From an uncultured Anaerolineae bacterium (GTDB lineage: Bacteria; Chloroflexota; Anaerolineae; Promineifilales; Promineifilaceae), in NCBI GenBank assembly GCA_905479495.1, contig CAJQMR010000029.1:62001-126000 (forward strand): a DNA stretch of 64,000 nt, read 5' to 3'. Below, piece after piece: positions 47,427-49,291 of this stretch (position 1 is the stretch's first letter; each line of letters starts with the position of its first letter). Under the pieces are notes generated by a model. It saw only the letters and a list, made by a program, of their open reading frames with translations, made no database searches and was not told the DNA's origin. The position numbers and the translations under genes are program-made.

Positions 47427-47831
47427 ATGGTAAATACTCCAAAGCGGCCAATCTTTTTTAGAACGGTTTCAATAGTGTTAGCTATTTTGCTAATATCAAG
47501 TTTGTATAAAGTTGCCACAAACTTATTTGCCCAAATCGGGGAAATAGGCACAATCACTGAGCAAATTCCATTTGACCAAGAGGGTTGGAATGCTCCTATG
47601 ACAAACTCAGAAGGGCATTTTACAGGTACCCGCCTTAAAATGGTTGATGATTTGTTGGATCGTTATGACTTTAAAGGTTGGAGTACACAAGAAATTCAAA
47701 ATTTACTGGGGGAGCCAGACCTTCGGCAAGAACACTCATTGCAATATGATCTCCGTGAAGGCTTGAATCTTTTAATTTTTACGATTGATTCGCAAAACAC
47801 AGTTCTTAAATATCATGTCCGAAAACCTTAG
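47427..47831 (+). CDS. Hypothetical membrane-anchored protein (BamE/SmpA-like fold possible)
   Basis: N-terminal TM; FKGWSTQEIQNLLGEPDLRQEHSLQYDLREG. Confidence 0.55.
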   Translation: MVNTPKRPIFFRTVSIVLAILLISSLYKVATNLFAQIGEIGTITEQIPFDQEGWNAPMTNSEGHFTGTRLKMVDDLLDRYDFKGWSTQEIQNLLGEPDLRQEHSLQYDLREGLNLLIFTIDSQNTVLKYHVRKP

Positions 47832-47846
47832 TAAAAATAACAACTT

Positions 47847-48752
47847 GTGAAGATTCTTGTAACAGGCGCGACGGGGTTTGTGGGACGGGCGCTGGTTCCA
47901 TTTTTGGTGAGCCAACCAAATGTTGAAGTGACAATTTTGGTGCGGGAGGTGTACAGCCATGTGGATTTACGGCCGTTCCCCCCACCCCTCCAAGCCATCC
48001 GCCAACAACTCAACGTGGTTTACGCCGATTTGCGTAACTTCCAGCTCACCAGCCGCGCTGTTGCTGTCGCCAATCCGACACACGTTATCCACCTGGCAGC
48101 GGCGGGCGTGACGGACCCATTTTTGGGCCTGGACACCGCCCTGCGCCACAACCTCACCGGCACGCTCAACCTGATTCGCGCCTGCTTTGAGAAGCGCCAG
48201 GGAATACAGCAGCTCATTGTGGCCCGCACGCCGGGCGAACGCAGCAGCATGAATGTGTACGCCGCCAGTAAAGCCGCTGCCTGGAACTTTTGTGAAATGT
48301 ACGGCCGTACCCACCACTGGCCCATCCACGGCGCGATGATCTACCAAGCATATGGCCCTGGCCAATCCCCGCGCAACCTCATTCCGGCAGCCATTGCGGC
48401 CGCTTTGGCCGGGCAAGATTTTCCCATGACCCGTGGCACCCAGCAGCGGGATTGGCTTTATATTGAAGATTTGGTCAAAGGATTATGGGCCATGCTAAAT
48501 GCGGAATTGGCCCCGGCGGAGACAGTTGAATTGGGCAGCGGTGCCGCGACCAGTGTCGCTCAGGTGGTGCAGCAAGTTTACGAGATTGTGGGTGGTGTGG
48601 GACGGCCGTTACTCGGCGCTCTCCCCACTAGGCCCGGCGAAGAAACAAGTCAAATCGCCAACGCCCAGCAAACTCAGCAACAAATCAACTGGCAAGCCAC
48701 CACTCCCCTAAAAACCGGCCTCGCCCAAACCATTCAAACCGACTATGGATGA
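47847..48752 (+). CDS. NAD-dependent epimerase/dehydratase, GTG start
   Basis: MKILVTGATGFVGRALVPFLV; HVIHLAAAGV; NVYAASKAAAW; GPGQSPRNLIP. Confidence 0.85.
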   Translation: MKILVTGATGFVGRALVPFLVSQPNVEVTILVREVYSHVDLRPFPPPLQAIRQQLNVVYADLRNFQLTSRAVAVANPTHVIHLAAAGVTDPFLGLDTALRHNLTGTLNLIRACFEKRQGIQQLIVARTPGERSSMNVYAASKAAAWNFCEMYGRTHHWPIHGAMIYQAYGPGQSPRNLIPAAIAAALAGQDFPMTRGTQQRDWLYIEDLVKGLWAMLNAELAPAETVELGSGAATSVAQVVQQVYEIVGGVGRPLLGALPTRPGEETSQIANAQQTQQQINWQATTPLKTGLAQTIQTDYG

Positions 48753-48832
48753 CAAGTTCCCGGTCCCCTTACCATAGGACTGCCCCCCTTGGGCCATTGA
48801 GGTTACCATGCGAAGCACGTAAACTACTGGTA

Positions 48833-49021
48833 AGGTGGTCGAATCGAGAGACAGCAAAATGAGCTTGCTCTCGGTGGGGAGCTATAACCTACCGTATTCT
48901 TACAATACACACACACTGTTGCAAGCACGGCAGCAACTTCATAGGAGCTGGCTGACTATTTCATTGCAGACAGCATCGTCGTCGCAAATAGTTAGCACAT
49001 TTGCTGCTCATTCGACCACCT
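48833..49021 (+). ncRNA. Candidate structured RNA or MITE-like element with closing 12-bp inverted repeat
   Basis: AGGTGGTCGAAT (48833-48844) pairs perfectly with ATTCGACCACCT (49010-49021); inner complementarity GAG-CAGC-AAATG / CATTT-GCTG-CTC; no credible ORF. Confidence 0.4.
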
Positions 49022-49063
49022 GCCCAACAACCCGATCAATGTAAAATACACCCAAAAACGCAA

Positions 49064-49104
49064 AACCAGCCTGGAGCGAAAAATGCTCCAGGCTGGTTTG
49101 GTTT
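49064..49104. terminator. Intrinsic terminator hairpin
   Basis: AACCAGCCTGGAGC gaaaaat GCTCCAGGCTGGTT followed by T-rich sequence, in a convergent intergenic region. Confidence 0.8.
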
Positions 49105-49126
49105 TATTAAAAAATCAGACTATTTC

Positions 49127-49291
49127 TTAACGCGTTTCGCGATAAATCACATGCCGACGCAAGGTCGGATCATACTTTTTCAGCTCAATCCGATTGGGAT
49201 CGTTGCGCCGATTTTTGGTCGTGTAATACATGTGATGGCTTTCTGTGCTGCGCAATTTGATTACGCCACGAACACCTTTTTTCTTTGCCAT
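49127..49291 (-). CDS. rpmG: 50S ribosomal protein L33
   Basis: [54 protein letters not shown] (54 aa; below the ORF-track length cutoff). Confidence 0.96.

Follow-up and report, generated by a model that had tools for sequence, protein, structure and literature searches.

The window, i.e., the whole analysed stretch of 64,000 nt, carries on its + strand between 44400 and 48752 a series of genes which, by their look, belong to nucleotide-sugar and related metabolism; two of them are NAD-epimerases/dehydratases according to Pfam, and the rest was assigned by eye. A 134-aa protein without a Pfam match (47427-47831) is encoded between two epimerase genes. The end of the NAD-epimerase gene is followed by an intergenic element of about 189 nt and then by the convergent genes rpmG and rpmB. 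The following features were assigned to this region, with coordinates and strand:

48780-48799, + strand: upstream box CTGCCCCCCTTGGGCCATTG, a possible activator or UP-like site, the last three bases of which open the -35 hexamer; conserved in the related genomes G001 and G003
48797-48825, + strand: promoter candidate TTGAGG-17 nt-TAAACT; TTGnnn, the 17-nt spacer and CACGTAAACTA are common to all three species
48833-49021, + strand: structured ncRNA of ~189 nt with a predicted start at or beside 48833, based on the fold z-score, 74-89% identity in three species and the covariance model R1
48833-48844, + strand: 5′ strand of the closing helix H1, paired with 49010-49021; 11 of 12 pairs are preserved throughout the three species, with a single U-A to U-G replacement
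49010-49021, + strand: 3′ strand of H1, paired with 48833-48844
48848-48858, + strand: 5′ strand of helix H2, paired with 49000-49009; 100% of cells paired, one A-U changed to G-U
49000-49009, + strand: 3′ strand of H2, paired with 48848-48858
48845-48873, + strand: alternative 5′ hairpin CGAGAG/CUCUCG, which excludes H2 and vice versa; pairs invariant
48872-48894, + strand: hairpin H4, CGGUGGG/CCUACCG; 95% of cells paired
48931-48950, + strand: hairpin H5, CAGC/GCUG; pairs invariant, predicted in two of the three species
48951-48996, + strand: long hairpin H6/H7 with the outer stem GCUGACUAUUU/AAAUAGUUAGC; the chief evidence for covariation is six pairs that are altered on both sides
49063-49107, + strand: bidirectional intrinsic terminator shared with the convergent rpmG; 16-bp stem and a T tract on both strands

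The initial annotation had described a candidate structured RNA closed by a perfect 12-bp helix, and the two sequences, AGGTGGTCGAAT and ATTCGACCACCT, are indeed present at the ends of the element and fully complementary. The 12-bp arms taken alone are not beyond chance, since ~0.8 such inverted repeats are expected per window at this spacing (64,000 x ~200 / 4^12), whereas the whole fold is. The + strand of 48833-49021 folds with -72.9 kcal/mol compared to -46.4 +/- 3.6 for shuffled sequences (z = -7.46), and none of 200 shuffles was as good; the reverse strand folds less well (z = -4.32). The imperfect inward continuation of the closing helix was found in part: GAG/CUC and CAGCAAA/UUUGCUG extend it, but the minimum-energy fold does without the proposed AAAUG/CAUUU pairing. 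Both internal hairpins which had been noted, H4 and the outer stem of H6/H7, were recovered in the fold.

Full-length homologs were identified in two further species (G001 and G003) of the same genus of uncultured Anaerolineae (Chloroflexota) among the 98 relatives searched, with pairwise identities of 89, 74, and 75% across the three species. The promoter region is 69-73% identical, the DNA immediately upstream of it 40-52% and the spacer downstream of the element 27-43%. In all three genomes the locus has the same arrangement and orientation, comprising the end of the NAD-epimerase gene, the element and the convergent rpmG-rpmB. The source assembly (G000) has a contamination estimate of 7.4%; the syntenic homologs in the two other genomes establish the locus as native to the genus.

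The three homologs allowed an analysis of covariation. Their fold z-scores are -7.5, -5.4, and -4.0, and each of the predicted folds contains a multi-branched junction. In the consensus structure of 59 pairs, 96% of the pair cells are kept across the three sequences. Six pairs are altered on both sides, compared to 2.6 in shuffles (2 of 500 shuffles reach six) and 0-2 in slid controls; this covariation rests on three sequences, and the compensatory changes are concentrated in H6/H7 (48951-48996). The consensus energy is -67.1 vs. -33.2 +/- 3.9 and the structure conservation index (SCI) 0.93 vs. 0.66 +/- 0.06 in column shuffles, none of 100 being as good in either case. H1 and H2 barely vary, and the closing helix is supported mainly by the persistence of its pairs, one of which changes from U-A to U-G. 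The inner folds differ among the species, with H3 and H5 in G003 being predicted at 4% only. The pair cells comprise 16 G·U against 3 A·C, and the RNA was therefore assigned to the + strand. The proposed RNA structure at 48833-49021 is thus real; it is backed by its conservation, the compensatory changes, the excess of G·U over A·C cells, and promoter-like and terminator signals that are kept across the species.

Upstream of the element, the box CTGCCCCCCTTGGGCCATTG has a single occurrence in the genome when no mismatch is allowed and is conserved in spite of the low identity of the DNA just upstream (40-52%). It overlaps the promoter candidate at 48797-48825, in which the CACG preceding the -10 hexamer is likewise conserved. 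This promoter is a candidate put forward by comparison of the three species; it was not called by a simple consensus scan and lies below a generic sigma-70 threshold. Its -10 hexamer TAAACT ends at 48825, which places the predicted transcription start on the first nucleotide of the element, at about 48832-48833. On the other side, the strong terminator of the initial annotation was found at 49063-49099; it reads in both directions and is kept in G001 and G003. Since the next gene, rpmG, is convergent and the terminator lies in between, a role as 5′ leader, be it cis-regulatory or as a riboswitch, was rejected.

The distribution of the element was analyzed using R1, which scores 220, 218, and 177 bits on the three homologs, i.e., on its own training sequences. 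The searches of the order and the class were run with stricter filters, which may lose weak matches. At this setting, the element was found in 3 of the 56 genomes of the order, all of one genus, the other 53 being without a detectable match; the best matches outside the genus in the order are two of ~32 nt with 17 bits. A draw of 396 genomes of the class, which left out G001 and G003, yielded no further genome. The lack of a match in G002, a fourth genome from the genus, carries no information, as this assembly is 75% complete and rpmG is missing from it too. With the filters off, the loci examined in other genera gave only short scattered R1 matches, of which the best covers the closing helix alone; all are taken as chance. 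The same applies to a 22-mer pattern searched over the family, which had chance-like matches only, mostly in DNA that looked coding by eye, while a 17-mer searched over genome and viral contig collections returned the two known species and chance matches only. No homolog was found by distant blastn in plasmid and phage records. In neighboring genera the gene junction and the element are both missing at either flank, and in other genera rpmG and the epimerase are each followed by different content. The element may have been born in the genus, or it may have diverged beyond detection.

The comparison with known families gave no counterpart. A scan of the whole window at gathering thresholds matched no Rfam 15 family, and a local search of 48700-49160 at E<=10 returned nothing credible and no 6S row. 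The proposal of a novel ncRNA stands, and we read the element as a new intergenic ncRNA gene of narrow distribution. It is new as a family, being covered by no Rfam model, and of a familiar kind, namely a lineage-specific structured intergenic RNA. A displaced housekeeping RNA was rejected as well, as 6S RNA, RNase P RNA, and SRP RNA are all located on other contigs. We infer that the element is transcribed and probably is an ncRNA gene acting in trans. Long conserved stretches lie in the structured 5′ half and the unpaired middle is variable, which favors an RNA bound by a protein; this mode of action is plausible, though somewhat short of an even chance. A decoy for CsrA was dropped, since G003 does not retain the AUAGGAG loop site.

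The main rival reading is a base-pairing sRNA, in which the unpaired middle of the molecule (about 48895-48920, UAUUCUUACAAUACACACACAC) would act against mRNAs. The stand-alone gene with its terminator and the unpaired A/C/U-rich stretch of the consensus fold would suit such an RNA. However, few parts of the element vary as much as this stretch, which is gapped in G003, and the invariant parts lie mostly within helices, so that base pairing with mRNAs is considered unlikely.

Still less probable is the 6S-like RNA of the initial annotation, or a second 6S RNA, which would bind RNA polymerase by mimicking a promoter. The element resembles 6S RNA (RF00013) in its size (187 model positions in 6S), in its ends joined in a long terminal helix and in being a stand-alone intergenic gene with its own promoter- and terminator-like signals, and it has the 10-mer ATGAGCTTGC in common with the 5′ part of the 6S RNA of this genome. 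Yet it fails the 6S model even at E<=10, its predicted fold has a multi-branched junction in place of a rod whose single central bubble mimics an open promoter, and the genuine 6S RNA was found on another contig (G000:C10:425191-425381) with 68 bits and E = 7e-13. The 10-mer is located at 48859-48868 of the window and at L022:1521-1530, and the rough chance of such a match between two 190-nt RNAs is ~3%.

Further known RNAs share parts of this architecture. Retron msr-msd RNAs are multi-hairpin RNAs closed by terminal inverted repeats of ~12 bp, which is also the layout found here. A retron ncRNA was rejected, as no adjacent reverse transcriptase was found among the flanking genes checked (epimerases, L33, L28, trpC, a hydrolase, and one protein without a Pfam match). 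Y RNA/YrlA, the Ro-associated RNAs, are alike in their helix-closed ends and branched interior, but the element has no Rfam match, and the Ro/TROVE protein (PF05731) is absent from the genome, while a control search found PF05731 in one known genome; a Y RNA was thereby ruled out. The Chloroflexi-1 motif (RF01698), listed for Chloroflexus aggregans (Weinberg et al., 2010; PMC2864571), is likewise a structured RNA candidate restricted to one group of Chloroflexota; unlike it, the element matches no Rfam 15 family at gathering thresholds.

A small protein gene is very improbable. In the window species a GTG/ATG frame of 69 codons (48835-49044) is open and spans the element, but its counterparts contain an internal stop in G001 and a frameshift in G003, and no reading frame conserved across the three species was found. 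It also lacks a convincing ribosome site, and the conservation is accounted for by the pairing constraint. The initial judgement that there is no credible ORF is in line with this. Equally improbable is a MITE or other mobile element with the 12-bp helix as its terminal inverted repeats, which had been considered at first, given a single copy in the genome (7.28 Mb, 52 contigs), the same locus in three species, flanks without a target-site duplication at the element ends (ACTGGTA/GCCCAAC), compensatory changes inside the element and a conserved promoter.

The element represents an RNA family missing from Rfam and comes from a lineage of Chloroflexota for which RNA biology is scarce; it also illustrates how narrowly a structured RNA can be distributed. 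Provided that it is transcribed, this single-copy ncRNA gene confined to one genus offers a clean case in which the complete anatomy, namely promoter, fold, and terminator, is legible by comparison. A short literature search found no such RNA described for Anaerolineae, the absence being weak evidence.

For the preferred ncRNA gene acting in trans, the following course can be proposed, in which we infer a folding switch and a protein partner. RNA polymerase would start near 48833 from the candidate promoter at 48797-48825. In the nascent RNA, the 5′ strand would initially favor the local hairpin at 48845-48873; as the 3′ end emerges, the 3′ strand would capture the 5′ arm, and the local hairpin would be replaced by the closing helix, which may hold both ends together and shield the molecule. 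In thermodynamic predictions for each length, which do not describe kinetics, the local hairpin starts at a probability of 0.95-1.0 in each of the three species when the RNA is 60 nt long, varies between 0.35 and 0.95 at 100-170 nt and ends at about 0.01 or less at full length. The invariance of the 5′ arm fits both predicted pairings and is no proof of a switch. Once finished, the RNA would act in trans, with protein binding as decoy, scaffold or regulator being the most likely mode. The more far-reaching version, in which a lineage-born RNA refolds during transcription from the 5′ hairpin into the end-to-end helix and functions in an undescribed type of RNA-protein complex, is speculative and a little less probable than the base-pairing sRNA.

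The product would be a multi-branched RNA of ~190 nt with a short tail, and transcription would stop at the hairpin 49063-49107. The window species has no terminator of the ncRNA's own and would depend on the bidirectional one that serves rpmG. In both G001 and G003, an additional intrinsic terminator lies after the element and ahead of the rpmG-shared one; the stretches compared with 49063-49107 in this respect are about 1767-1812 of L003 (G001) and about 1422-1474 of L004 (G003, - strand).
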